Shown piece after piece: positions 3,820 through 60,447 of a DNA stretch of 64,000 nt. The stretch comes from Couchioplanes caeruleus. Its GTDB lineage: Bacteria > Actinomycetota > Actinomycetes > Mycobacteriales > Micromonosporaceae. The stretch is from positions 3,968,001 to 4,032,000 of the forward strand of contig NZ_RJKL01000001.1 of assembly GCF_003751945.1 (NCBI RefSeq), written 5' to 3'. The notes under the pieces are model-generated. The model was not told the origin of the DNA and made no database searches. It saw only the letters and a program-made list of their open reading frames with translations. Position 1 is the stretch's first letter; each line of letters starts with the position of its first letter. Position numbers and translations under genes: made by a program.

Positions 3820-5688
3820 GTGACGGCAGAGGTGGCGGACGGCCGCAGCTTCCCGGAGCTGAACGGCGGCGGTCAGCGCCTGCCCAAGGTGCGCACGCCC
3901 CATGTCCGTTATGGACGATTATTCGGTATTCGCACCAGTCAGCTTGTCAGTACCCAAGTGGCCGTCGTGGCCTTACTGATCGGCGCCGCCAACGGCCCTA
4001 TCGCCCTCGGCGCCGCGGCATTTGCGGCAATTGTCCTGCTCGCCCTCACCTGGCTCCGCCTGCGTGGCCGCTGGGCGTTCGAGTGGCTCGGCACAGCGAC
4101 CAGATACGCGGGCCGGCGCCACGCAGTGTCCGTCGGCAGCGCGCCGACCGCACTGCTCGAGTTCGTCGCGCCTGGCGCCACCGTCGAGCAGACGGGGTTG
4201 GCCGGCGATCCGGCCGCGGTCATCGTCGACGGGCAGGGTCTCACCGCCGTTCTCGAGCTCGGCGAGACGGCCGGCCTCCTCGCCGAGCTGGCCGGTGCGG
4301 CGCCGTCCCCGGCGGGATTGCTGCCGTCCGCGGATGCCGAGCATCCGCCATGCCGCATCCAGCTAGTGCTCGCCGGAGCCCCTGCTCCTTCCTTGCGGGC
4401 GGGAGGCGGCACGCCCGCCAACTCGTACCGTCAACTGACCGATGGACGCCTGCTCGGCCACAGCCGAGCGCTCCTCGCGGTCCGGGTGCTGCGCGCCGAG
4501 GGCTGGTCCGACGACGATCTCCGACGGGCGTTGTCCGGGCTGGTCCGCAGGCTGGTCCGCCGACTCGCGCCGAGCCCGGTGCGCCCTCTGGGCGAGGCGG
4601 CCGCCCTGGGTGTCATCGCCGACCTCGCCCACGATGAGGGCGGCGGCGTGGCCCAGGAGAGTTGGGCGGGCCTGCGGGTCGGGGGCCTGGCCCAGGTCAC
4701 GTTCCGGCTCCGCCGCTGGCCCGACCTACGGATCGAGACCTCCCGGCGCATCATCGCCCGCATGCTTGCCCTGCCTGCGGCAGCGACCACGGTTGCGCTG
4801 GGTGCCGGACCACACTCACCCTCGGGTACGGACACAGCCATCGACCTCACCGTCCGTCTCGCCGCGCCGGATGCCGCAACGTTGTCGCTCGCTGCCCAGA
4901 CTCTGCGCAAACTCCTCGCCGCCGAGCGAGCTACCGTGCAGCGTCTCGACGGCGAGCACCTCGGCGGCCTGACCGCGACCCTGCCACTGGGCATTCCGAC
5001 GTCACCGGCGATCCCCGGCCGCCCCGACCTGAACGGCCTCGGAAGCCACCCCACCGGCCTGGTGGAAGACCTCGAACTGCCGATCAGCAACGCGGGCCTG
5101 ATGATCGGCACCAACCGCCGCGGCGAACCGGTCATCGCGCGCCTTTTCCGGCCGGAGCAGACCCGCGCCCTCCTCATCGGCGGCGTGCGCTGCGCGCAAC
5201 TGGTGTCGCTACGGGCGATGGCGCTGGGCGCGCGGGTGGTGGTCCAGACGGCACGCCCGCAGGCCTGGGAACCCTTCGTACGCGGGGCCGCGGTTCCCGG
5301 TGAGTCGATCGCGGTCATCCCGCCGGGCCGAGCGGTGGACATGCCCCAGGGCTCGGCACTGCAACCGCTCCTGGTGGTGATGGACATCGGCCCGGTCGGC
5401 GCGGACAGCCGACCTGGACCCGGCTGGCAGACCACCCTGGTGGTCCGCGACGGCTTCACCTCGGCGGACGCGGACGTCGCCTCCCGCGCCGACCTCCTCC
5501 TCGTGCAGCCGCTCCGAGCAGACGAGGCCGAACTCGTCGGCGCCACCCTCGGCCTGGGCGAGACGGCGACCTGGCTGACCCAGATCCGCACGGACATGGT
5601 GGGAGTGATCAACCGGCGCGCGGTCCGCTGGGCGGCGCTGTCCCAGACCCCCATCGAAGCCCAGTTGATCGGCCTCCCAACCCGCTGA
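3820..5688 (+). CDS. eccE: Type VII secretion protein EccE
   Basis: EccE is a membrane component of the ESX core complex. The 622-residue product has a short polar N-terminus, then two hydrophobic segments (about residues 50-95, VSTQVAVVALLIGAA... AAAFAAIVLLALTWL). A long, mostly soluble domain follows, rich in conserved Leu/Arg/Gly and without catalytic motifs, as in EccE. The GTG at 3820 has AAGGGCGG upstream. A TTG/GTG-initiated extension back to 3706 would run through the AT-rich promoter region and the DnaA-like sites, so I reject it. The gene is alone on its strand and diverges from the esx pair. EccB, EccC, EccD and MycP are not in the window, so the rest of the system must lie elsewhere. 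One TTA codon occurs in the first membrane segment. Confidence 0.75.
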   Translation: MTAEVADGRSFPELNGGGQRLPKVRTPHVRYGRLFGIRTSQLVSTQVAVVALLIGAANGPIALGAAAFAAIVLLALTWLRLRGRWAFEWLGTATRYAGRRHAVSVGSAPTALLEFVAPGATVEQTGLAGDPAAVIVDGQGLTAVLELGETAGLLAELAGAAPSPAGLLPSADAEHPPCRIQLVLAGAPAPSLRAGGGTPANSYRQLTDGRLLGHSRALLAVRVLRAEGWSDDDLRRALSGLVRRLVRRLAPSPVRPLGEAAALGVIADLAHDEGGGVAQESWAGLRVGGLAQVTFRLRRWPDLRIETSRRIIARMLALPAAATTVALGAGPHSPSGTDTAIDLTVRLAAPDAATLSLAAQTLRKLLAAERATVQRLDGEHLGGLTATLPLGIPTSPAIPGRPDLNGLGSHPTGLVEDLELPISNAGLMIGTNRRGEPVIARLFRPEQTRALLIGGVRCAQLVSLRAMALGARVVVQTARPQAWEPFVRGAAVPGESIAVIPPGRAVDMPQGSALQPLLVVMDIGPVGADSRPGPGWQTTLVVRDGFTSADADVASRADLLLVQPLRADEAELVGATLGLGETATWLTQIRTDMVGVINRRAVRWAALSQTPIEAQLIGLPTR

Positions 5689-6093
5689 CGCGACAACCCG
5701 CGGCTTCACCGCCCGGCGACGACGGCGACGCGGCGCAAGCCCTGGAGTTGCGGAGCCGCCACCCCATGGCCCCGAGGTTGAGCCGCGGCCACCGAGGCCG
5801 GGTGGGACCGTCGGCGCCTCTGGTCCACACGCCGACCGCACCGCTCCACACGCCATCCGCGCGGCGTCGCATTCTGCAAGCGCCCGCTCCGCCCACCGCG
5901 TGCACCGCGACACCGCAGCCCCCGTTGCGCACTACTGCGGTTTGCATTCGGGCCTGGACTGGCTCGCAAAGCGCGCCAATCGGATTCGAGGGCGGTATCG
6001 GGTCTGTCTGTACGGCCGGTTTCTCGACGTGCGCTGACAAGATCGTGGAGTGTTGCTGCTCTTGGTGGCCCGGGCGTGGCACCATCGCGAGCC
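5689..6093. other. Gene-free stretch between eccE and the small membrane protein
   Basis: I see no gene, clear hairpin or repeat in these 405 bases. Open frames on both strands are compositional shadows. The promoter of the following rightward gene should lie in the last 100 bases, but no convincing -35/-10 pair is visible. Confidence 0.5.
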
Positions 6094-6474
6094 ATGGGCA
6101 TCATCATCCGGCTGGTCATCACGGCCGTCTCGCTGTGGATCGCCACTCTGGTCATCGACGGCATCCGGCTCACGACCGACTCAGTACCTGGGAAGGTCGG
6201 GGCGCTCCTCGCCGTCGCCGTCATCTTCGGCATCGTGAATGCCGTGCTGCGGCCGATCATCAAGATGATCGGGTGCGGGCTGTACGTTCTCACCCTCGGC
6301 CTGATCTCCGTGGTGGTGAACGGCCTCCTCTTCCTGCTCACTAGCTGGATCGCAGGCCGGTTCGATCTGCCGTTCCACGTGGACGACTTCTGGCCCAGCG
6401 CGGTTCTCGGCGCTCTCCTCGTCGGCATCGTGAGCTGGGTCCTCAACATGCTCGTCCCCGACGGCGACGACTGA
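6094..6474 (+). CDS. Phage-holin-like family 4 (YvlD-type) membrane protein
   Basis: This 126-residue protein has four predicted membrane helices: IIIRLVITAVSLWIATLVI, VGALLAVAVIFGIVNAVLRPIIK, YVLTLGLISVVVNGLLFLLTSWI and AVLGALLVGIVSWVLNML. The NAVLRPIIK stretch and overall size match the PF04020 'phage holin family 4, superfamily II' membrane proteins common in bacterial chromosomes; despite the name no lytic function is established. The ATG at 6094 is preferred; an ATG at 6076 adds only six residues. The ribosome site is weak. A perfect 10-bp hairpin follows at 6531-6555, so the gene is probably monocistronic. Confidence 0.75.
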   Translation: MGIIIRLVITAVSLWIATLVIDGIRLTTDSVPGKVGALLAVAVIFGIVNAVLRPIIKMIGCGLYVLTLGLISVVVNGLLFLLTSWIAGRFDLPFHVDDFWPSAVLGALLVGIVSWVLNMLVPDGDD

Positions 6475-6530
6475 CCCCAAGCGGGTTCCCGGCCCTGGAT
6501 GAACCCCGGGCGGCCAAGACGCCGTAGCGA

Positions 6531-46027: not shown

Positions 46028-46787
46028 GCCCCATCCGCCGCCCGGTGTGCCGACCTGGGTCGACCTGGGAACAGCGGACCTGCCGGACGCGACCCGCTTC
46101 TACGCGGAGTTGTTCGGCTGGGAGGCCGACGTGTCCGGTGAGGAGTACGGCGGCTACACCACCTTCCGGCTCGACGGCCACGCCGCCGCCGGCGCCGGTC
46201 CGTTGTTCGGCGAGGGGCAGCCGACGGCGTGGAGCATGTACCTCGCCACCGACGACGCCGACGCGGTCGCCGCCCGGGTGGAGGCCGCCGGGGGCAAGGT
46301 GCTGGTGGCGCCCTTCGACGTGATGTACCAGGGCCGGATGGCCACGTTCCTCGACCAGGCCGGCGCGCCCTTCAGCGTGTGGCAGCCGGGCTCCATGAGG
46401 GGCGCCGACGTCTTCGACGTGCCCGGCGCGCTGACCTGGAACGAGCTGGCCACCCGGGATGTGGAGGGATCCGCGGCGTTCTACGGGGCGGTGTTCGGGT
46501 GGCTGGGCCGGGAGATCGAGCTGGGCGGGCGGCCGTACCTCTCCTGGGAGCTCGACGGCGCCACCATCGCGGGCATGAAGGAAATGGACGAGACGTGCCC
46601 CGACGATCTGCTGCCACATTGGATGGTGCACTTCGCGGTGATCGACTGCGACGGCGCTGCGGCGTATGCCCGGTCGCTCGGCGGCACGGTGCTCCGAGCG
46701 CCGACGGACCTGCCGATCGGCCGCTGCGCGCTCCTCCAGGATCCTCAGGGCGGGGCGTTCTCGATCCTGCAGAGCGTCAACGCCTGA
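46026..46787 (+). CDS. Two-domain VOC family protein
   Basis: This 253-residue protein has two tandem glyoxalase-like domains. The first begins PTWVDLGTADLPDATRFYAELFGWEAD and the second TWNELATRDVEGSAAFYGAVFGWLGRE near residue 140. It matches the actinomycete 'hydroxylase'-annotated VOC family used in some antibiotic pathways, whose true activity is unclear. GAGGAGAAGG precedes the ATG at 46026. Its stop lies in the first copy of a 34-bp repeat shared with the end of the opposing btuD gene. Confidence 0.9.
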   Translation: MPHPPPGVPTWVDLGTADLPDATRFYAELFGWEADVSGEEYGGYTTFRLDGHAAAGAGPLFGEGQPTAWSMYLATDDADAVAARVEAAGGKVLVAPFDVMYQGRMATFLDQAGAPFSVWQPGSMRGADVFDVPGALTWNELATRDVEGSAAFYGAVFGWLGREIELGGRPYLSWELDGATIAGMKEMDETCPDDLLPHWMVHFAVIDCDGAAAYARSLGGTVLRAPTDLPIGRCALLQDPQGGAFSILQSVNA

Positions 46788-46857
46788 CCGACTCTTGCCG
46801 CCGCGGAACGTCAACGCCTGACCGACTCTTGCCGCCGCGGAACGTCAACGCCTGACC
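46775..46857. repeat. 34-bp tandem repeat spanning two convergent stop codons
   Basis: A 34-bp unit starting CGTCAACGCCTGACCGACTC occurs exactly twice (46775-46808 and 46809-46842), followed by a 15-base third copy. The first copy encodes the last VOC codons and its TGA. The third supplies the TGA of btuD on the other strand. Confidence 0.9.
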
Positions 46858-47609
46858 GGGACGACCAGCGGGCCGTGCTCGCCGTCGATCACCCGGACCC
46901 GCACCCGGTAGTGCCGGGCCAGCAGCTCCGCGGTGAGCACCTCGCGGGCGGTGCCCTTGGCCACCACCCGGCCGCCGGAGAGCAGCACCATGCGGTCGGC
47001 ATACTCACCGGCCGTCGTCAGGTCGTGCATGGTGGCGAGCACGGTCAGGCCGCGCTCGGCCCGCAGCCGGTCGACGAGCTCGAGAACCTCCTGCTGGTGA
47101 CCGATGTCCAGCGCGCTGGTCGGCTCGTCCAGCAGCAGAATCCGCGCCTCCTGGGCCAGCGCCCGCGCGAGAAAGACCCGTTGTCGCTCGCCGCCGGAGA
47201 GGGTTTCCAGCCGGCGGCCGGCGAAGGCCTCCAGGTCGAGCACCGCCAGCACCTCGTCGACCTGGGCCAGGTCGGAGGCGGACTCGCGGCCCAGCGGGGG
47301 GATGTGGGGGCTGCGGCCGAGCAGCACGTAGTCGTAGACCAGCATCGCCGGCGGCACGACCGGCGACTGGGCGACCGTGGCGAGCGTCCGGGCCCGCTCC
47401 CGGCGGGTCAGCCGGTCCAGGGCGGTGTCGCCGAGCGCGATCGAGCCCTCGTACGGGACGAGTCCGCCGACCGCCCGCAGCACGGTCGACTTGCCGGCGC
47501 CGTTCGGTCCGATGATCGTCACCCACTCGCCGTCGGCCACGTCGAGCTCGACGCCGTCGACGATCAGCGCGCCGCCGAGGCGGATCCGCAGGTCCCGTAC
47601 GGCGATCAT
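46845..47609 (-). CDS. btuD: Cobalamin ABC transporter ATP-binding protein
   Basis: This 254-residue ATPase of the FecCD/BtuCD importer type has Walker A TIIGPNGAGKSTVLR near residue 36. The signature is LSGGERQRVFLARALAQEARILLLDEPTSALD, covering the ABC motif and Walker B, near residues 138-170, and the H-loop is in ATMHDL. ATG at 47609 overlaps the permease stop (ATGA). It energises the BtuC-like permease. Being third in an operon led by a cobalamin riboswitch identifies the substrate as B12 or a corrinoid rather than iron-siderophore. Its 3' end lies in the repeat shared with the VOC gene. Confidence 0.88.
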   Translation of the reverse strand: MIAVRDLRIRLGGALIVDGVELDVADGEWVTIIGPNGAGKSTVLRAVGGLVPYEGSIALGDTALDRLTRRERARTLATVAQSPVVPPAMLVYDYVLLGRSPHIPPLGRESASDLAQVDEVLAVLDLEAFAGRRLETLSGGERQRVFLARALAQEARILLLDEPTSALDIGHQQEVLELVDRLRAERGLTVLATMHDLTTAGEYADRMVLLSGGRVVAKGTAREVLTAELLARHYRVRVRVIDGEHGPLVVPVRR

Positions 47610-52075: not shown

Positions 52076-52145
52076 GACACCACGAGGGTACGCGCCCCCG
52101 ACCAGCCATCGAAGCCCACACCCACCCGCCCCAGGCCCCGGCGCC

Positions 52146-52208
52146 GGCTCGCACCCAACCCGGCCCGGCTCGCACCCAACCCGGCCCGGCTCGCACCCAA
52201 CCCGGCCC
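52146..52208. repeat. Three perfect tandem 21-bp repeats
   Basis: The 21-bp unit starting GGCTCGCACCCAACCCGGCC occurs three times without change (52146, 52167, 52188). It lies between mqnE and the four-helix membrane protein gene. Perfect identity means very recent expansion. Confidence 0.95.
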
Positions 52209-52260
52209 GCGCCGAGGGACCTCCTCGATCAGGTCCCCGGCCAGGCCGGGCCCGCCGCCG

Positions 52261-53430: not shown

Positions 53431-53646
53431 CTGGGCCCCTCTCACGTTCGCGTGCGTCGAGCGTACGTCCTACCCCTGACGGGAACTCCGCCCGTGTGGT
53501 CCTCCCGCGGCGCAGCTCACGTGAATGGGATTACGATTCTCAGGGTCCTCCCATCTCAGACGGATCGACACCGGTGCAGGTGTTGCGGTATGACCTTTAA
53601 GGGACGGCAGTCGCCGGACGGGGACCGTTCGCGAACGGGGAGCGCA

Positions 53647-55503
53647 TTGGCGAAGTTGAGGCAGAACCGGCGCCGCGCCGCCCGCGGGGTGCTTCCCTGG
53701 TGGCGCCCGCTCGCTTATTCCGCCGCGACCGCCACCGTCATCGCCGCCCTCTTCAACCCGCTCCCTGCCGTCGCGGTTCCGGTGGCGCCTCCGGGTGCGC
53801 CGGCCGCGGTGCCCGACGCCGGTTCCCGCCCGATCGCCACCGGCTCGCTCACCCTGCCGGGGCAGCGGCCCGGCACCAGCGCGAGCACCACCCCGGCGTC
53901 CACCCTTCCGGTCGCCACCGGCGGTGCCACCAGCCCGCTGCTGAGGAAGATCGAGGCGGGCCGCATCGAGATCGCCAAGAAGGGCGAGGAGCTCGCCAAG
54001 CTCGACGAGGATCTCAGTCTCACCCGCACCCAGCTCACGACCGCGGACCAGAAGGTCCTGCAAGGCCAGTCGGCCGTGACGGCAGCCGAGCAGGCGGTCG
54101 CGGCCGCGGCAGCCAATGCCGTACGCCACGCGGCCGCGTTGCCTCCGGGCACCGCCGGCTCAGGCCTGAACGACCTCGACGCCCTCGCTCGCATCCAGCG
54201 TGGCGAGTCGTCGACCCAGGAGGCCGCCAGCCGGCATCTGAGCATCGCGCAGTCGGCGTACACGACGGCGACAACCGAGCAGCAAAGCCTGCGGGCGAAG
54301 CTCGACCTGGTCACCGCCGAGCACACCAAGAAGAAGGCGGTCCTCGACAAGAAGACCGCGGCCCAGCAGAAGCTCGAGCAGAAGCACACCGAGGAGATCA
54401 AGGCGGCCGAGGCCGCCCAGGCCGCGCGGGACGCCCAGGCCGGGGTGGGCTTCCTGGCGGGCGAGAACGCGGGCCGGGGCGCGGACCCGCGGGCGATCGC
54501 GGCCCTGCAGATCGCGCTGGCTCAGCGCGGCGACCCGTACGTCTGGTCCGAGGAAGGCCCGGACATGTTCGACTGCTCCGGGCTGATGTATTACGCCTAC
54601 CGCTCGGACGCGGCGGGCAACTTCCCGCTGACCCGGGTGGCGAAGGACCAGTATTTCCAGACCCGCGACAAGACGGTGGACCGTTACTCACTGCTCCCGG
54701 GCGACCTGCTGTTCTTCAACTCGACGCCAAGCTGGACGAGCATCCACCACGTGGCCATGTACGCCGGCAAGGGCATGATGGTAGAAGCCCCGCGCGCCGG
54801 CATGGACGTGATGCTCACCCCCATGCGCTGGACCCAGCTTTTCGCGGCGACCCGGATCTACGGCTCGGTCGAGGGCAAGGTCGAGGGCCCGAAGCTGGGC
54901 GCGCCGGACCCGGAGAAGCCGAGCGACCACTCGCCCACGCCGAAGCCGGGCACCAAGCCTCCGACGAAGCCGAGCGACCCCGGCACGCCGTCGACTCCGG
55001 GCAAGCCCTCTACGGGCCGGCCGTCGACCCCGAGCACTGGCACGCCGTCCACTGGCACGCCGAGCACCGGCACGCCGAGCACCGGCACGCCGTCCACTGG
55101 CACGCCGAGCACCGGCACACCGACCACCGGCACGCCGACCACCTCCGGCCGGCCGTCGACGCCCACGGGAGGCAGCAACCCGCCGTCGGGCTCCGCGGGC
55201 ACGTCCACGGGAGCCAAGCCGCCGTCAGGCTCGACGGGCACCTCCACGGGAGCCAAGCCCCCGACGGGCTCCGCGAGCACGACCGCGGGAGGCAAGCCGC
55301 CGTCGGGCTCCGCGGGCACGTCCGCCACCGCGAGCACGTCGGCCACCGCAGGCTCGACGAAGTCCCCGACGACGTCGGCCAGCACGTCCAAGCCTGTCGC
55401 CGCGTCGACCTCGGCCGGCGCCGCGACGTCCGGCACCGCCTCGGTAACCCCGTCCGCCTCGGCTTCCAGGGCGGCCGAAGCGAAACAATCCGGTAACGGC
55501 TGA
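53647..55503 (+). CDS. NlpC/P60 cell-wall endopeptidase with repeat tail
   Basis: This 618-residue protein has an N-terminal membrane anchor or signal (WWRPLAYSAATATVIAALFNPLPAVA). A coiled-coil region spans about 110-265 (EEHTKKK..KLEQKHTEEIKAAEAAQAARD), then an NlpC/P60 domain about 285-405 with the catalytic Cys in EEGPDMFDCSGLMYYAYR and His in TSIHHVAMYAGKG. The last 190 residues are Thr/Ser/Pro/Gly repeats. The architecture is that of RipA-like peptidoglycan hydrolases with a regulatory coiled coil. TTG at 53647 is preferred because GGGGAG lies 5 bases upstream; an ATG at 53590 would add 19 polar residues and has a poor ribosome site. Confidence 0.85.
   Translation: MAKLRQNRRRAARGVLPWWRPLAYSAATATVIAALFNPLPAVAVPVAPPGAPAAVPDAGSRPIATGSLTLPGQRPGTSASTTPASTLPVATGGATSPLLRKIEAGRIEIAKKGEELAKLDEDLSLTRTQLTTADQKVLQGQSAVTAAEQAVAAAAANAVRHAAALPPGTAGSGLNDLDALARIQRGESSTQEAASRHLSIAQSAYTTATTEQQSLRAKLDLVTAEHTKKKAVLDKKTAAQQKLEQKHTEEIKAAEAAQAARDAQAGVGFLAGENAGRGADPRAIAALQIALAQRGDPYVWSEEGPDMFDCSGLMYYAYRSDAAGNFPLTRVAKDQYFQTRDKTVDRYSLLPGDLLFFNSTPSWTSIHHVAMYAGKGMMVEAPRAGMDVMLTPMRWTQLFAATRIYGSVEGKVEGPKLGAPDPEKPSDHSPTPKPGTKPPTKPSDPGTPSTPGKPSTGRPSTPSTGTPSTGTPSTGTPSTGTPSTGTPSTGTPTTGTPTTSGRPSTPTGGSNPPSGSAGTSTGAKPPSGSTGTSTGAKPPTGSASTTAGGKPPSGSAGTSATASTSATAGSTKSPTTSASTSKPVAASTSAGAATSGTASVTPSASASRAAEAKQSGNG
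55033..55137 (+). repeat. Seven 15-bp coding repeats (STGTP)
   Basis: Seven consecutive 15-bp units (AGCACCGGCACGCCG with small changes) encode STGTP in the tail of the NlpC/P60 protein. From 55180 to about 55325 a second family of ~39-bp units encodes KPPSGSxGTSTGA three to four times. Confidence 0.85.
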
Positions 55504-55654
55504 GCTCAGACCCGATCTTTACACCGCGACCGGTTGACGCCGGGTGTGCTCACGAGCGCTGATGTGGCACGGTAGTGACGAGCGCCCGGCATCCGGCTTG
55601 CCCGGCGTCCGATAGGTGGCGTCGGCACGCGGGTGGCGGCGATCGGGAGGACCC

Positions 55655-58150
55655 ATGGACGAGCAGCAGGCGACACCGGCCAGCGACGGCATCAGGCCGC
55701 CCGCTGCGCAGCCGCCCGCCGTCGGCTCCGGGCCGCAAGATCAGGAGTACCAGCTCCCCCCACCCCCGGCCGCGGGCGCGCTGTGGGCCGCCCCGGCCGG
55801 TGCTGCGAAGCCCGTGTCCGGATCCGCACCCGTCCCTGCCTCGGGCTCCGCATCGGTTCCCGCCTCCGCGCCCGTTTCCGCCTCCGCGCCCGTTTCCGCC
55901 TCCGCGCCCGTTTCCGCCTCCGCGCCCGTTTCCGCCTCCGCGCCCGTTTCCGCCTCCCGCTCCGTTCCCAGCTCCGCGCCGGTCAGCGGCTCCGCCCCGG
56001 TCTCCGGCTCCGCGTCCGTTCCCAGCTCCGCCCCGGTCTCCGGCTCCGCGCCTGTTCCCAGCTCCGCGCCGGTGAGCGGGGGCGCTGCTGGGCGGGCGTC
56101 CGTGCACTCGAACCGCTCGGCGTTCTTCCCTGTCAGCCCCGCCAAATCCACCGCCGCGTCAGGCGGGACCGGCGCACAAGGTTCCGCATCCGTATCAGGT
56201 AACAGCTCGAAGGGTTCCGCATCCGTGTCCGGCACTTCCTCCGTTGCCTCGTCCGGCCGCTCACAGGGTTCCGCCTCGGTGGACGGCGGTTCGTCGCGGC
56301 CGGTGTCGGTGCCGCCGAGCTCGAACGCCGCCCGGGCCAGCGTGCCGGGTTCCGCGCAGGCTGAGCCCGCCGACCGCGGCGCCGCGGCGCGGAAGGGTGG
56401 TCAGGCCAAGGTCTACGGCACGCGTGCGACCGAAAATCCCGCTCCGGAGAAGCCGGCCGACGACTCCGCGCCCGTCGAAGCCGCGAAGGACGAGGCAACC
56501 CGGGTGCAGGCGCCGGAGGTAGCTCCCGCCGCGGCGGCCAAGACAGCCGTGAAGGCCGACGCGGCCGACGCGGCCGAGGGAGCCGACGGGGCTGAGGGAG
56601 CCGACGCGGCCGAGGGAGCCGACGGGGCTGAGGGAGCCGACGGGGTCAGGGCCGGCGATATCAAGCCTGGTGACATCAAGGCGGGCGACGTCGAGCCTGG
56701 TGGCACCAAGGCGGGCGACGTCGAGCCTGGTGACATCAAGGCGGGCGTAGGCGTCGAGACCGCGGAGAAAGCAAAGGTCGAGAAGACCAACGCCGAGGAA
56801 GCCACGACGGTGGAGGCCTCCGAGCCTACTGAGGCCGCAGAGGTCTCAGAGACGGATGAGGCAGCGGCTCCGGAGCCTGACCTGCCTGAGCCGTCGACTC
56901 CGGAGCCGCGGCCCGCCAAGCCCGAGCCGCCGAAGCCCACCCGTCCCGAGCCGGTCCCGTTCCCGACTCCCTCGCCGGCGCCGCCCGCTCCGGGACCGTC
57001 GCCCGCTCCCTCGCCGGGGCCGTCGCCCGTTCCGCCGGGTCCGGTTCCGCCCGGGCCCAATCCAGACCCTGTGCCGCCGACGCCTGGCCCGGACCCCGTG
57101 CCCCCGGCTCCGGGGCCCTCGCCGGTGCCGCCGGGTCCGAGTCCTCACCCGGTGCCGCCGGGCCCCGGCCCCTCGCCGGTTCCCGGACCGCCGCCTACAC
57201 CATTTCCCGCGCCGCCGACATTCCCGGCAGCGTCCAGCGCCCCGGCAGCGAAGATTGCGGTGCCGAACGTGCCGGTCAATCCCGGTGGTTCGTCGACGAA
57301 CGGCCTGCCGGCCTACACCGTCCCTCCGACCTCAGGTCCGGCTAGCAGCCACGCGACGTCGCCCGCGCAGAGCGACTCGACGATGCCGTTCGCGACGCAG
57401 GAACTGTCGCGGAGCGACGCCACCACGCCGTTCGCCGCCCAAGGGACGACGCAGAACGACGCCACCACCCCGTTCGCCGCCCAAGGAACAGCACGGAACG
57501 ACGCCACCACCCCGTTCGCCGCCCAAGGAACAGCACAGAACGACGCCACCACCCCGTTCGCCGCCCAAGGAACGACACAGAACGACGCCACCACCCCGTT
57601 CGCCGCCCAAGGAACAGCACAGAACGACGCCACCACCCCGTTCGCGGCTCAACGAGCGACGCAGGGTGCGGTGCAGGGAGGCTTGCACGGTCCGAGTGAC
57701 GCGACCATGCCGTTCGCGGCCACGGGGTCTTCACATGCCCCCGCCTCGTTCGGGGTCGGCGCGTCGGCCGGCACGCGGCAGACGTTCGGTGGAGCGGGAT
57801 CGTCCATGGGTAGCCCGTCCGCGCGCCCCTCGACGTACGGGTCGGGTTCCGGACAGGGCGTGCCGCATCAGCGTGGGGAGGGCACCGTGTACGGGGGGCT
57901 CGCGGACTACGCGCCCTCCGACATGACGATGCCGATCATGACCAACCCGGTGGAGAACTCGGGTTCGCTGACCGGCCACATCCTGGCCCAAGGGTGGCGC
58001 GACGCCCCGGAGACCCAGCGGAACAGCAACGTCAAGGTGATCGTCGCCATGCTGCTTGTCCTGGCGTTCCTGGTCGGGGTGAGCCTGCTCTTCCTGTTCA
58101 CCGTCGGGGACGCGTTCAGCGACATGATCGGCGGGGTTTTCCAGGGATAA
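55655..58150 (+). CDS. Large repeat-built tail-anchored protein with DATTPF motifs
   Basis: I do not recognise this 831-residue protein. It has no signal peptide; residues 1-780 are predicted disordered, and one C-terminal helix (VKVIVAMLLVLAFLVGVSLLFLFTV) anchors it with about 12 residues after. Repeat blocks in order: APVSAS, SASVSG-like Ser-rich, AEGADG, KAGDVEPG, Pro-rich (PSPVPPGP, about residues 420-525), and six 14-residue copies of NDATTPFAAQGTAQ. The motif D-x-T-[TM]-P-[FI] occurs nine times, the last (SDMTMPIM) 35 residues before the conserved-looking juxtamembrane NSGSLTGHILAQGWRDAPETQRNS. ATG at 55655 has GGGAGG upstream. A scaffold presenting Thr sites to kinases or FHA domains is speculation. 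Confidence 0.8.
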   Translation: MDEQQATPASDGIRPPAAQPPAVGSGPQDQEYQLPPPPAAGALWAAPAGAAKPVSGSAPVPASGSASVPASAPVSASAPVSASAPVSASAPVSASAPVSASRSVPSSAPVSGSAPVSGSASVPSSAPVSGSAPVPSSAPVSGGAAGRASVHSNRSAFFPVSPAKSTAASGGTGAQGSASVSGNSSKGSASVSGTSSVASSGRSQGSASVDGGSSRPVSVPPSSNAARASVPGSAQAEPADRGAAARKGGQAKVYGTRATENPAPEKPADDSAPVEAAKDEATRVQAPEVAPAAAAKTAVKADAADAAEGADGAEGADAAEGADGAEGADGVRAGDIKPGDIKAGDVEPGGTKAGDVEPGDIKAGVGVETAEKAKVEKTNAEEATTVEASEPTEAAEVSETDEAAAPEPDLPEPSTPEPRPAKPEPPKPTRPEPVPFPTPSPAPPAPGPSPAPSPGPSPVPPGPVPPGPNPDPVPPTPGPDPVPPAPGPSPVPPGPSPHPVPPGPGPSPVPGPPPTPFPAPPTFPAASSAPAAKIAVPNVPVNPGGSSTNGLPAYTVPPTSGPASSHATSPAQSDSTMPFATQELSRSDATTPFAAQGTTQNDATTPFAAQGTARNDATTPFAAQGTAQNDATTPFAAQGTTQNDATTPFAAQGTAQNDATTPFAAQRATQGAVQGGLHGPSDATMPFAATGSSHAPASFGVGASAGTRQTFGGAGSSMGSPSARPSTYGSGSGQGVPHQRGEGTVYGGLADYAPSDMTMPIMTNPVENSGSLTGHILAQGWRDAPETQRNSNVKVIVAMLLVLAFLVGVSLLFLFTVGDAFSDMIGGVFQG
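55862..55951 (+). repeat. Five exact 18-bp coding repeats (ASAPVS)
   Basis: GCCTCCGCGCCCGTTTCC is repeated five times without change, encoding ASAPVS, inside the tail-anchored repeat protein. Diverged copies flank the block. Confidence 0.9.
57413..57664 (+). repeat. Six 42-bp coding repeats (DATTPFAAQGT)
   Basis: Six consecutive 42-bp units, in frame, encode [SN]DATTPFAAQGT[AT][QR]. Copies differ by only a few bases. Related single motifs lie on both sides (DSTMPF near 57374, DATMPF near 57698, DMTMPI near 57919). Confidence 0.95.
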
Positions 58151-58389: not shown

Positions 58390-60447
58390 TTGACCACTTT
58401 CGCTGATCCCAGCACGTTCCCGTCCGTCTTCGACACCCCCGTCCTGGAGCAGGATCCGACGACCGCCGAGGTCGAGATCATCGCCACCGCCGACACCGCG
58501 ACCGCGGACCCGGCGAGCTCCGACGACGCGAAGACCGTCACTCAGGCCACCGAGAAGGCCACCGCGGAGACCGGCACGCAGGCTGCCGCACCGAACGCCG
58601 AGAAGGCCACCGCGGAGATTGAGACCACCGCCACCGACGCCGTGATGAGCGCGCAGAGCGAGGTCGCCGACGACGCCGTGACCACGGCGCAGAGCGAGAC
58701 CGCCGACGACGCCGACGCCGATGTGGAGATCGTCGAGGCGCGCAAGAGCTTCGCCGACCTTGGCCTCCCCGCCGAGCTGGTCCGCGTGCTCAAGCGCGAG
58801 GGCATCACCACCCCGTTCGAGATCCAGGCCGCGACCATGCCGGACGCGCTCTCCGGCCGCGACGTGCTCGGCCGCGGCCAGACAGGCTCCGGCAAGACCC
58901 TGGCGTTCGGCCTGCCGGTGCTGGCCCGCGTCGCCCAGGGCGGCCGCGCGCTGCCGCACCACCCCAAGGCCCTGATCCTGGTGCCGACCCGCGAGCTGGC
59001 CATGCAGGTCGCCGACGCGCTGATGCCGCTCGGCCGGGCCGTCGGCGTCTTCCTCAAGACCGCCGTCGGCGGCGTGCCGTATGACCGGCAGATGGACGCG
59101 CTGCGCCGTGGCGTCGAGGTGATCGTCGCCACCCCGGGCCGCCTGGGTGACCTGATCGAGCGGGGCGCCTGCAAGCTCGACAGCGTCGAGGTGACCGTCC
59201 TCGACGAGGCCGACCAGATGGCCGACATGGGCTTCCTGCCCGAGGTCACCGAGCTGCTCGCCAAGACCCCGGCGGACGCTCAGCGGCTGCTCTTCTCGGC
59301 GACGCTCGACGGCGACGTCGACACGCTGGTCAAGCGGTTCATGACCGACCCGGTGACGCACTCCACGGCCCCGGCCGAGGCGAGCGTGTCCACCATGGAC
59401 CACCACCTGCTGCTGATCCCGCCGCACGACAAGTTCCCGATCACCGCGTCGATCGCCAACCGGGCGGGCAAGACCATCGTCTTCGCCCGTACACAGATGG
59501 GTGTGGACCGGCTGGTCGAGCAGCTCGCCGCGGTGGGCGTGCGGGCCGGTGCGCTGCACGGCGGCAAGACCCAGCGGGTACGCACCCGCACGCTGGCCGA
59601 GTTCAAGGAAGGCCGCACGAACGTGCTGGTCGCCACCGACGTCGCCGCCCGCGGCATCCACGTCGACGGCATCTCGCTCGTCGTGCACGTCGACCCGCCG
59701 AAGGACCCGAAGGACTACCTGCACCGTGCCGGCCGTACGGCCCGCGCGGGTGAGTCGGGCGCGGTGGTGACGCTGGTCCTGCCGAAGCAGCGCCGCAGCA
59801 CGCAGGCGATGATGCAGAAGGCCGGCGTCGCGCCGGGCGAGTTCCGGGTGCGGCTCGGCGACGAGAAGCTGGCCGAGATCACCGGGGCCCGCGAGCCCAG
59901 CGGTGTGCCGGTGAAGGACGAGCCGGAGCCGCGCCGGGAGCGGGGCGACCGTCCGCGTCGCTTCGGCGACCGCCCGCAACGCGGCGGCTACGACCGTCCG
60001 CGCGGCGACCGTGGCCACGGCGACCGCCCGCGCGGCGAGCGCAGCTACGGCGACCGGCCCTCCGGTGACCGCGACCGCTCGTTCGGCGACCGCCCCCGCG
60101 GCGAGCGCACGTTCAGCGACCGCCCCCGCGGCGAGCGGACCTTCAGCGACCGCCCCCGCGGCGAGCGGACCTTCAGCGACCGCCCCCGCGGCGAGCGGAC
60201 CTTCAGCGACCGTCCCCAGGGCGAGCGTTCGTTCGGCGACCGTCCCCAGGGCGAGCGTTCGTTCAGCGACCGCCCCCGCGGTGAGCACTCGTACAGCGAC
60301 CGGCCGCGTAGTGAGCGGGGCTTCGGTGACCGCCCGTCCCGCAACTTCGGCGACCGTCCGGGCGGCTTCCGCCGCGAGAGCGGCCGCAACGATCGGCGCG
60401 AGCCGGGCAACGGCCGCTACCAGGGCCGTCCGGCGCACACGCACTGA
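58390..60447 (+). CDS. DEAD-box RNA helicase with Arg/Gly repeat tail
   Basis: This 685-residue protein has an acidic Ala/Thr-rich N-terminal extension (1-115). The Q motif is SFADLGLPAELVRVLKREGITTPFEIQ; motif I is GQTGSGKT, motif II VLDEADQMADMGF, motif III FSATL and motif VI HRAGRTARAG. Residues ~520-685 are DRPRGERTFS-type repeats, an RNA-binding RGG-like tail. It belongs to the RhlE/DeaD group unwinding structured RNA, usually in the cold. The start is TTG at 58390 with GAGAGG 6 bases upstream. The product is monocistronic, with a strong terminator. Confidence 0.92.
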   Translation: MTTFADPSTFPSVFDTPVLEQDPTTAEVEIIATADTATADPASSDDAKTVTQATEKATAETGTQAAAPNAEKATAEIETTATDAVMSAQSEVADDAVTTAQSETADDADADVEIVEARKSFADLGLPAELVRVLKREGITTPFEIQAATMPDALSGRDVLGRGQTGSGKTLAFGLPVLARVAQGGRALPHHPKALILVPTRELAMQVADALMPLGRAVGVFLKTAVGGVPYDRQMDALRRGVEVIVATPGRLGDLIERGACKLDSVEVTVLDEADQMADMGFLPEVTELLAKTPADAQRLLFSATLDGDVDTLVKRFMTDPVTHSTAPAEASVSTMDHHLLLIPPHDKFPITASIANRAGKTIVFARTQMGVDRLVEQLAAVGVRAGALHGGKTQRVRTRTLAEFKEGRTNVLVATDVAARGIHVDGISLVVHVDPPKDPKDYLHRAGRTARAGESGAVVTLVLPKQRRSTQAMMQKAGVAPGEFRVRLGDEKLAEITGAREPSGVPVKDEPEPRRERGDRPRRFGDRPQRGGYDRPRGDRGHGDRPRGERSYGDRPSGDRDRSFGDRPRGERTFSDRPRGERTFSDRPRGERTFSDRPRGERTFSDRPQGERSFGDRPQGERSFSDRPRGEHSYSDRPRSERGFGDRPSRNFGDRPGGFRRESGRNDRREPGNGRYQGRPAHTH
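60025..60330 (+). repeat. About ten 30-bp coding repeats (DRPRGERTFS)
   Basis: Units of 30 bp, CGCCCCCGCGGCGAGCGCAC plus TTCAGCGAC-type ends, run in register from 60091 to 60330 (eight units) with a further copy at 60025-60054. Three central units are nearly identical. They encode the basic tail of the helicase. Confidence 0.9.

Follow-up and report, generated by a model that had tools for sequence, protein, structure and literature searches.

The window analysed here is a stretch of 64,000 nucleotides from Couchioplanes caeruleus (Micromonosporaceae; contig NZ_RJKL01000001.1, positions 3,968,001 to 4,032,000 of the forward strand). Between genes for an NlpC/P60 endopeptidase and a DEAD-box helicase, it contains a gene for an 831-residue, repeat-built protein with nine D-x-T-[TM]-P-[FI] motifs and a predicted C-terminal membrane anchor. 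The gene is a member of a real, so far nameless family, whose proteins may serve as membrane-bound docks for FHA-domain proteins through phosphorylated threonines. Its frame (55655–58150, + strand) is open over 831 codons from an ATG; GGGAGG also precedes the chosen start in 19 of 23 same-genus relatives, where starts were picked partly by such a signal. The protein consists of 18% Ala, 16% Pro, 12% Ser, 11% Gly and 7% Thr and is almost wholly of low complexity. Its features, with the tandem repeats located by Tandem Repeats Finder (TRF), are the following.

55645–55651, + strand: ribosome-binding site GGGAGGA ahead of the ATG at 55655, read from the sequence
55655–58150, + strand: coding sequence of the 831-residue disordered, predicted tail-anchored protein (open frame; homologs in family genomes)
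55757–55786, + strand: N-terminal conserved segment PPPPAAGALW, residues 35–44 (family comparison)
55856–56070, + strand: 18-bp tandem array coding for SAPVSA/SAPVSG (TRF)
56534–56645, + strand: 9/18/36-bp tandem array coding for GADGAE/AAEGAD (TRF)
56646–56747, + strand: 30-bp tandem array coding for AGD[IV][KE]PGD units, AGDIKPGD-like (TRF)
57098–57184, + strand: 27-bp Pro-rich array, PPGPSPVP-like (TRF)
57302–57328, + strand: conserved segment GLPAYTVPP (same-genus comparison)
57374–57391, + strand: motif 1, DSTMPF, residue 574 (motif scan)
57415–57652, + strand: 42-bp tandem array with six DATTPF (TRF, 93% matches), motifs 2 to 7 starting at 57416, 57458, 57500, 57542, 57584 and 57626
57698–57715, + strand: motif 8, DATMPF, residue 682 (motif scan)
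57920–57937, + strand: motif 9, DMTMPI, the juxtamembrane copy, residue 756 (motif scan)
57953–57997, + strand: near-invariant juxtamembrane block ENSGSLTGHILAQGW (alignments)
58037–58105, + strand: predicted C-terminal transmembrane helix core, about residues 795–817 (hydropathy, AlphaFold2)

A preliminary description, made from the letters of the window alone, had reported a low-complexity protein of this length with one C-terminal membrane helix, nine such motifs, at least five repeat types, and six copies of a 14-residue unit accompanied by three further motifs. Frame, hydropathy and motif scan confirm this: TRF finds five repeat types, and the nine motifs start at residues 574, 588, 602, 616, 630, 644, 658, 682 and 756, six of them as tandem 14-mers in the 42-bp array and the copies at 574, 682 and 756 outside it. 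The same description took the constant core between varying linkers as a sign of selection on the motif. Inside the gene this is weak evidence because the six tandem copies are near-identical DNA; the real evidence is the comparison across the family. Across the 8.4-Mb genome, a DNA pattern for the motif, GACNNSACSNNSCCGTTC, occurs 16 times, more often than expected by chance: the reversed pattern, used as a control, occurs four times. Eight of the 16 are inside the gene, and the eight outside show no clustering. A second DNA pattern has six genome matches (two for its reversed control), three of them outside the gene; the two of these three that were resolved by frame are single sites.

A nameless family and its conserved tail

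The family was searched with a profile of the C-terminal 90 residues, which matches 189 of 250 Micromonosporaceae genomes. Among the matches listed, all 60 same-genus genomes and the genome under study are included, and there is one copy per genome except in two genomes (G144 and G160) with two each; for 41 of the 61 non-matching genomes names were not given, and a same-genus miss is possible among these. Of 124 candidates in a protein search, five were returned as relatives; four of these are annotated as "hypothetical protein" and the fifth has no name. In agreement with the preliminary description, which knew of no described family of this kind, the 831-residue protein matches no Pfam and no NCBIfam family over its whole length, eight homologs match none in Pfam and three match none in NCBIfam. 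A plasmid search gave no match. In the open-licence literature, to which all literature searches reported here refer, four family sequence strings do not occur, and term searches gave nothing on the family protein among the matches listed. Although its low-complexity sequence looks meaningless, the protein is retained by 29 of the 44 sampled genera, and wherever its position was examined it occupies a single chromosomal site.

For comparison, 124 proteins were reduced to the 104 that differ from one another over their last 150 residues. They fall into 57 of an Actinoplanes group, defined below, and 47 others; within the group, length ranges from 223 to 966 residues, with starts chosen by us. 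In 16 diverse members the E, G, S, L, T, G, H, I, L, Q and G of the tail block are invariant together with two helix columns, and a G, a Thr, an N and a V are near-invariant. Judged from these alignments, the strongest constraint is on ENSGSLTGHILAQGW, outside the Thr motif. The perfect conservation of TGHILAQG is partly by construction because this string was one of two patterns in one locus search; it is conserved likewise in loci found by profile or DNA likeness, with the rare changes HILN, HILS, QGH and QGR. At the other end of the protein, a segment like PPPPAAGALW is found in 52 of the 57 group proteins and in seven of the 47 others. Ahead of the motifs, GLP[SA]YTxP is shared by 19 of 24 same-genus proteins, the C. 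caeruleus protein included. Val-Tyr-Gly and Ala-Pro-Val-Ser-Gly motifs (56408–56419 and 57881–57898) are multiplied in some relatives too (L026 and L027) and may be further short binding motifs.

The block is followed by the only hydrophobic segment of the protein: the Kyte-Doolittle average over 19 residues peaks at 3.06 at residue 795 and never exceeds 1.6 before residue 770, and the segment ends about 14 residues from the C-terminus, as a single C-terminal helix would. AlphaFold2 (29 sequences, mean pLDDT 66) predicts a helix over residues 785–829, confident in its middle, a low-confidence short helix at 772–780 (LTGHILAQG) and an unstructured stretch ahead of it. A search of solved structures with the tail profile gave three weak matches only, over the helix (E 0.24 to 0.36). 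Of the 104 proteins, 103 have more Lys and Arg ahead of the helix core (20 residues) than behind it, and one has as many on either side. By the positive-inside rule, we infer that the disordered N-terminal part lies in the cytosol. A reading by secretion or sorting signal was rejected: L[PA]xTG occurs within the last 120 residues of none of the 104 proteins, and an extra upstream hydrophobic 19-mer above 1.6 in one of them only.

Threonine motifs across the family

In 57 of the 104 proteins [DE]-x-T-[MV]-P-[VILM] stands directly ahead of the tail block. This Actinoplanes group is defined by presence of the motif; in a tree of the neighbouring helicase the same 57 rows form one branch (support 99/98) with 14 other rows outside it, the tree covering 71 of the 104 rows and leaving out 33 of the 47 non-group proteins, one for its short helicase piece. 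The preliminary description had proposed to test whether motif number varies while the motif is kept. In a first set of 24 same-genus genomes, selected by kinship, motif number varies and the juxtamembrane copy is present in all 24. The description had also held that homologs with the tail anchor and without any such motif would refute its idea, and taken literally such homologs exist: 47 of the 104 lack [DES]-x-T-[TM]-P-[FVILM] anywhere. The exact motif is thus lost in other genera, while a Thr with a hydrophobic residue at +3 is kept. T-x-x-[FVILM] occurs within 45 residues before TGHIL in all 57 group proteins (shuffled segments 33.2 ± 3.4, at most 44) and in all 47 others (21.6 ± 3.2, at most 31), and within 30 residues in 57 of 57 (shuffles 30.2) and 46 of 47 (19.4). 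The Ser version, S-x-x-[FVILM], is found within 45 residues in 16 group proteins and eight others, below the shuffle means of 24.5 and 11.4, and is below its shuffles at the 30-residue limit as well. What is conserved is T-x-x-hydrophobic, a quantity looser than the exact motif. At this site in the 47 others, +1 is mostly V (34), +2 is A or S in 42, and -2 is F in 30. Nine of the 57 group rows were scored on a different Thr close by, judging from their residues at -2 and +1, and the corresponding position counts of the group are not used here.

The preference of Thr over Ser extends through the disordered part. In the group, an acid at -2 and a hydrophobic residue at +3 surround 234 of 2271 Thr (local shuffles 18.7 ± 4.1) and eight of 4353 Ser (23.1 ± 4.4); among the others the figure for Ser is seven of 1480 (11.1 ± 3.3). 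These shuffle figures are descriptions, not probabilities. The pattern [DE]-x-X-x-P-[FVILM] has 240 matches, centred on T in 185, P in 26, A in eight and S in four, even though Ser outnumbers Thr about two to one. By these counts Ser is almost excluded from the motif and Thr is not exchangeable for it, as the low Ser controls also indicate.

Copies of the motif have been multiplied in some lineages. D-x-T-x-P-[FVILM] occurs once in 30 of the 57 group proteins and at least twice in 26, up to ten times, which gives zero to nine extra copies; in L147 the D spelling is absent, E replacing D. Linkers and periods differ between the arrays, with DATTPFAAQGTTQN in the C. caeruleus protein, DATMPFNAGAGS in G012, DLTMPVNLAGANA in G023 and DATMPFRAGTGTPQSNA in G005, and the array of A. 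rectilineatus is built on DLTQPV. Multiplied copies are patchy on the helicase tree: at least three extra copies, by a slightly wider pattern, are found in 18 of the 71 rows, and this trait requires six changes, gains and losses pooled, four of them forced by well-supported branches, as compared to 16.2 for shuffled labels. Outside the group, a genome of genus g18 (L097, reverse strand 4895–6511) has five DQTQVI with TGTARTTSNPTDT linkers and one EETQVV, and other proteins have DATQPI and EATQPI, or EATQVV. Within 18 proteins with at least four copies, the Thr codon differs in 45% of 362 copy pairs, and the flanks (-7 to -3 and +4 to +11) have the same residue in 16–42%, while D, T and P are constant by how the copies were picked.

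Possible docking of FHA proteins and other explanations

We infer phosphorylation, FHA binding, the FHA protein concerned and a role in envelope growth from what is established: the family, the predicted topology, the conservation, the preference of Thr over Ser, the patchy expansions, and kinases and FHA proteins encoded in the genome. In the reading to which we give about an even chance, the protein is a tail-anchored substrate of PknA/PknB-type kinases that docks FHA proteins at the membrane. The disordered protein would be a docking platform on the cytosolic membrane face; PknA/PknB-type Ser/Thr kinases would phosphorylate the Thr of [DE]-x-T-[MTQ]-P-[FVI] motifs; and FHA-domain proteins would bind the phosphothreonines, the likeliest candidates being FhaA and FhaB, which are encoded in the kinase cluster. 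A protein with the juxtamembrane site alone may then have a basal dock, lineage-specific multiplication of sites may raise binding capacity or avidity, and the tail block may be a second binding site for a further partner. The array resembles an adjustable landing strip on which proteins of cell-wall signalling might settle. The interpretation of the preliminary description, a membrane scaffold with Thr-kinase targets or FHA docking sites, is thus partly supported.

The components are present in the genome. It encodes GarA/OdhI and FhaB (both over the NCBIfam cut-offs), FhaA (by its Pfam N-terminal domain) and a fourth FHA protein with helix-turn-helix matches below cut-off, and 30 of its 31 kinase matches are over cut-off. 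A PASTA-repeat kinase at 4.326–4.328 Mb lies within 8 kb of FhaA/FhaB at 4.334 Mb. Ser is expected to be excluded from FHA ligands, which is close to what the motif centres show, and the bacterial FHA ligands known to us have one or two sites each.

Kinase preferences agree in part. Phosphothreonine predominates in M. smegmatis, at sites flanked by acids (PMC6554272), and most kinases of M. tuberculosis prefer acids at -2 to -5 (PMC6030727, citing Prisic et al.). PknA-dependent phosphosites of M. tuberculosis are marked by upstream acids (-1 and -3 to -6), by Pro on both sides (-1 and +2), and downstream by Leu/Val (+3) and basic residues (+4) (PMC7164672). The motif of the Actinoplanes group has the upstream acid (at -2), the Pro at +2 and the hydrophobic +3 of a kinase-type site, the last two in agreement with this logo. 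Cell-wall growth in mycobacteria is controlled by kinase-FHA signalling (PMC7164672, PMC11898655, PMC6180346), and FhaA is said to recognise phosphorylated Thr (PMC11898655).

The closest known parallel is the C-terminal tail of mycobacterial CwlM: a PknB-dependent phosphothreonine (T382), followed by Phe at 385 (+3) and 387, is bound by the FHA domain of FhaA (PMC6180346), and FhaA and a PASTA kinase are also encoded in the C. caeruleus genome. CwlM, however, is a regulator of peptidoglycan synthesis with two neighbouring sites, whereas the family protein is predicted to be tail-anchored, is repeat-built, and is a candidate FHA ligand. GarA/OdhI has its Thr site in an unstructured extension as well, at ETTS (PMC5448819), and the N-terminal part of GarA in C. 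caeruleus has DVTSTL, an acid-x-Thr-x-x-hydrophobic site; unlike the family protein, GarA is a metabolism regulator with its own FHA domain, a single such segment and no membrane anchor. In human cells, the flexible linker of MST2 has several Thr-Met motifs read redundantly by the FHA domain of SLMAP, which prefers [ED]-G-pT-M-x-[RK] (PMC5663475), but this is eukaryotic kinase autophosphorylation, with a basic rather than a hydrophobic residue favoured at +3, and there is no homology. MmpS3 and FhaA of M. tuberculosis, with 16 and 23 phosphosites in a PknA/PknB study (PMC7164672), resemble the family, with its candidate sites, in having many sites per protein; the family members scanned match no Pfam model.

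Several points weigh against docking by phosphorylation. The acids of the PknA logo are at -1 and -3 to -6, whereas that of the family is at -2 (PMC7164672). Among the 47 others, an acid at -2 occurs in five and Pro at +2 in three, so that the kinase-like context is not family-wide and the hydrophobic +3 is its sole general feature outside the group. T-x-x-hydrophobic is expected by chance in about half of juxtamembrane segments, and the excess is in Thr only. Outside the group, Thr with an acid at -2 and a hydrophobic +3 is weakly enriched (22 of 1407; shuffles 11.0 ± 3.2), and six of these 22 sites come from one protein. The shuffle contrasts altogether overstate significance because tandem copies and related proteins are not independent. 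Since 30 of the 57 group proteins have a single D-x-T-x-P-[FVILM], an array is not required. FHA matches, counted and not typed, number four to eight in 15 genomes with the gene and five to 11 in five related genomes without a profile match; as they are no fewer, if anything more, in the latter, co-occurrence gives no support. Among the literature matches listed, neither phosphoproteome or binding data for any homolog, nor a phosphoproteome of this clade, nor anything on FHA docking in soil actinomycetes was found.

The chief rival explanation, which we regard as possible though somewhat improbable, is that the tail, ENSGSLTGHILAQGW with the helix, is the functional part and binds a membrane partner, while the disordered part is a loose spacer whose repeats, the Thr motif included, grow by slippage. 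The tail block is the most conserved part of the protein, tandem repeats of the slippage type abound in the gene and in those beside it, and both the wide length range and the many single-motif proteins suit a spacer. Drift, however, fails to explain 185 Thr against four Ser at the motif centre, nor does it account for T-x-x-hydrophobic before the tail in 104 of 104 proteins against about half in shuffles. The Thr codons that differ between copies show, furthermore, that the copies are not all fresh, though synonymous rates in the flanks are similar.

Improbable in our view, though not negligible, is a short linear motif that works without phosphate: some protein other than an FHA protein, such as a factor of cell division or polarity, would bind the motif, and its Thr would be kept for shape. 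Residues at -2 and +2 vary between genera while Thr and the hydrophobic +3 persist, as in an ordinary peptide groove, and phosphorylation is so far only predicted; against this, Ser is nearly excluded, as expected for FHA ligands. The context also fits much of the published kinase logo (PMC7164672). We give very little credence to an exported, wall-associated Pro/Ala/Thr-rich protein, sortase-anchored or O-glycosylated: the composition and the NlpC/P60 hydrolase next door would suit it, and SspA of Actinoplanes missouriensis is likewise disordered with a C-terminal anchoring segment (PMC13293333), but the positive charges ahead of the helix and the lack of sorting and upstream hydrophobic segments noted above oppose it, and SspA itself is a protein of 191 residues with a signal peptide and a sorting signal for sortase anchoring (PMC13293333), both absent from the family protein.

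A bolder proposal can be tentatively made, with a chance of being right that we put well below even: the protein may be a bacterial membrane scaffold in which the valency of phosphothreonine docking evolves through the number of motif copies. One T-x-x-hydrophobic dock, present in the ancestor, would have been multiplied in several lineages (as DATTPF, DMTMPV/DLTMPV, DATMPFRAG, DLTQPV and DQTQVI), and the scaffold might seed FHA-dependent clusters where the envelope grows. Nature would then provide a series of one to ten docks with an unchanged tail and, where examined, unchanged neighbours. Relatives with one to ten copies of one candidate site are a natural experiment on multivalency in soil actinomycetes.

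Neighbouring genes and outlying homologs

The gene is flanked as follows.

53590–55503, + strand: NlpC/P60 endopeptidase, upstream neighbour, start chosen by us (Pfam)
58390–60447, + strand: DEAD-box helicase, downstream neighbour, TTG start chosen by us (Pfam)

Farther upstream than the NlpC/P60 gene lies a radical-SAM/CofH_C gene (Pfam), which we take to be MqnE-like. Compared with Couchioplanes caeruleus sequence, the helicase is 99% identical over 412 columns and the tail of the 831-residue protein 97%. The helicase is found downstream in 123 of 123 loci and NlpC upstream in 106, duplicates counted; for 14 of the 17 loci in which no NlpC was seen the upstream DNA is too short, and the remaining three (L027, L088 and L185) had room for it. 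A helicase search covered 16 family genomes that lack a profile match, and the seven whose helicase is closest were inspected. Upstream of their helicase no frame with a hydrophobic tail was found by a test that recovers 104 of 104 known members; NlpC precedes the helicase in six of these genomes, and in L215 the gap is wider. The gene thus seems to be absent from these seven helicase loci and is therefore dispensable over evolutionary time.

At order level, the profile matches 72 of 397 genomes, five of them outside Micromonosporaceae. Four of the five belong to one genus of another family (E 5.6e-9 to 2.4e-7); the fifth and weakest (G403, E 8.7e-4) has no convincing frame and was not counted. 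Three of the four better homologs (L208, L209 and L210) have ENTSSLAGALLG or EHTSSLAGALLG before the helix and NlpC upstream, and no helicase was found near them within the stretches examined; the fourth (L211) is cut off by a contig end, with no frame visible. In the tail block of L208, L209 and L210, Ala replaces the Thr of TGHIL.

The neighbours have repeats of their own. The NlpC/P60 protein has a repeat-rich Thr/Pro/Gly tail (55030–55353 of the window), and the helicase has a repeat-built N-terminus (58553–58714) and a GDRPRGERTFS-type C-terminus (59991–60335). A 21-bp tandem repeat (52137–52209, 3.4 copies, 98% matches) is flanked by the MqnE-like gene and by a small gene that matches nothing in Pfam, and the 3′ end of an ABC-transporter gene (46775–46858) has a perfect 34-bp tandem repeat with 2.5 copies at 100% identity.

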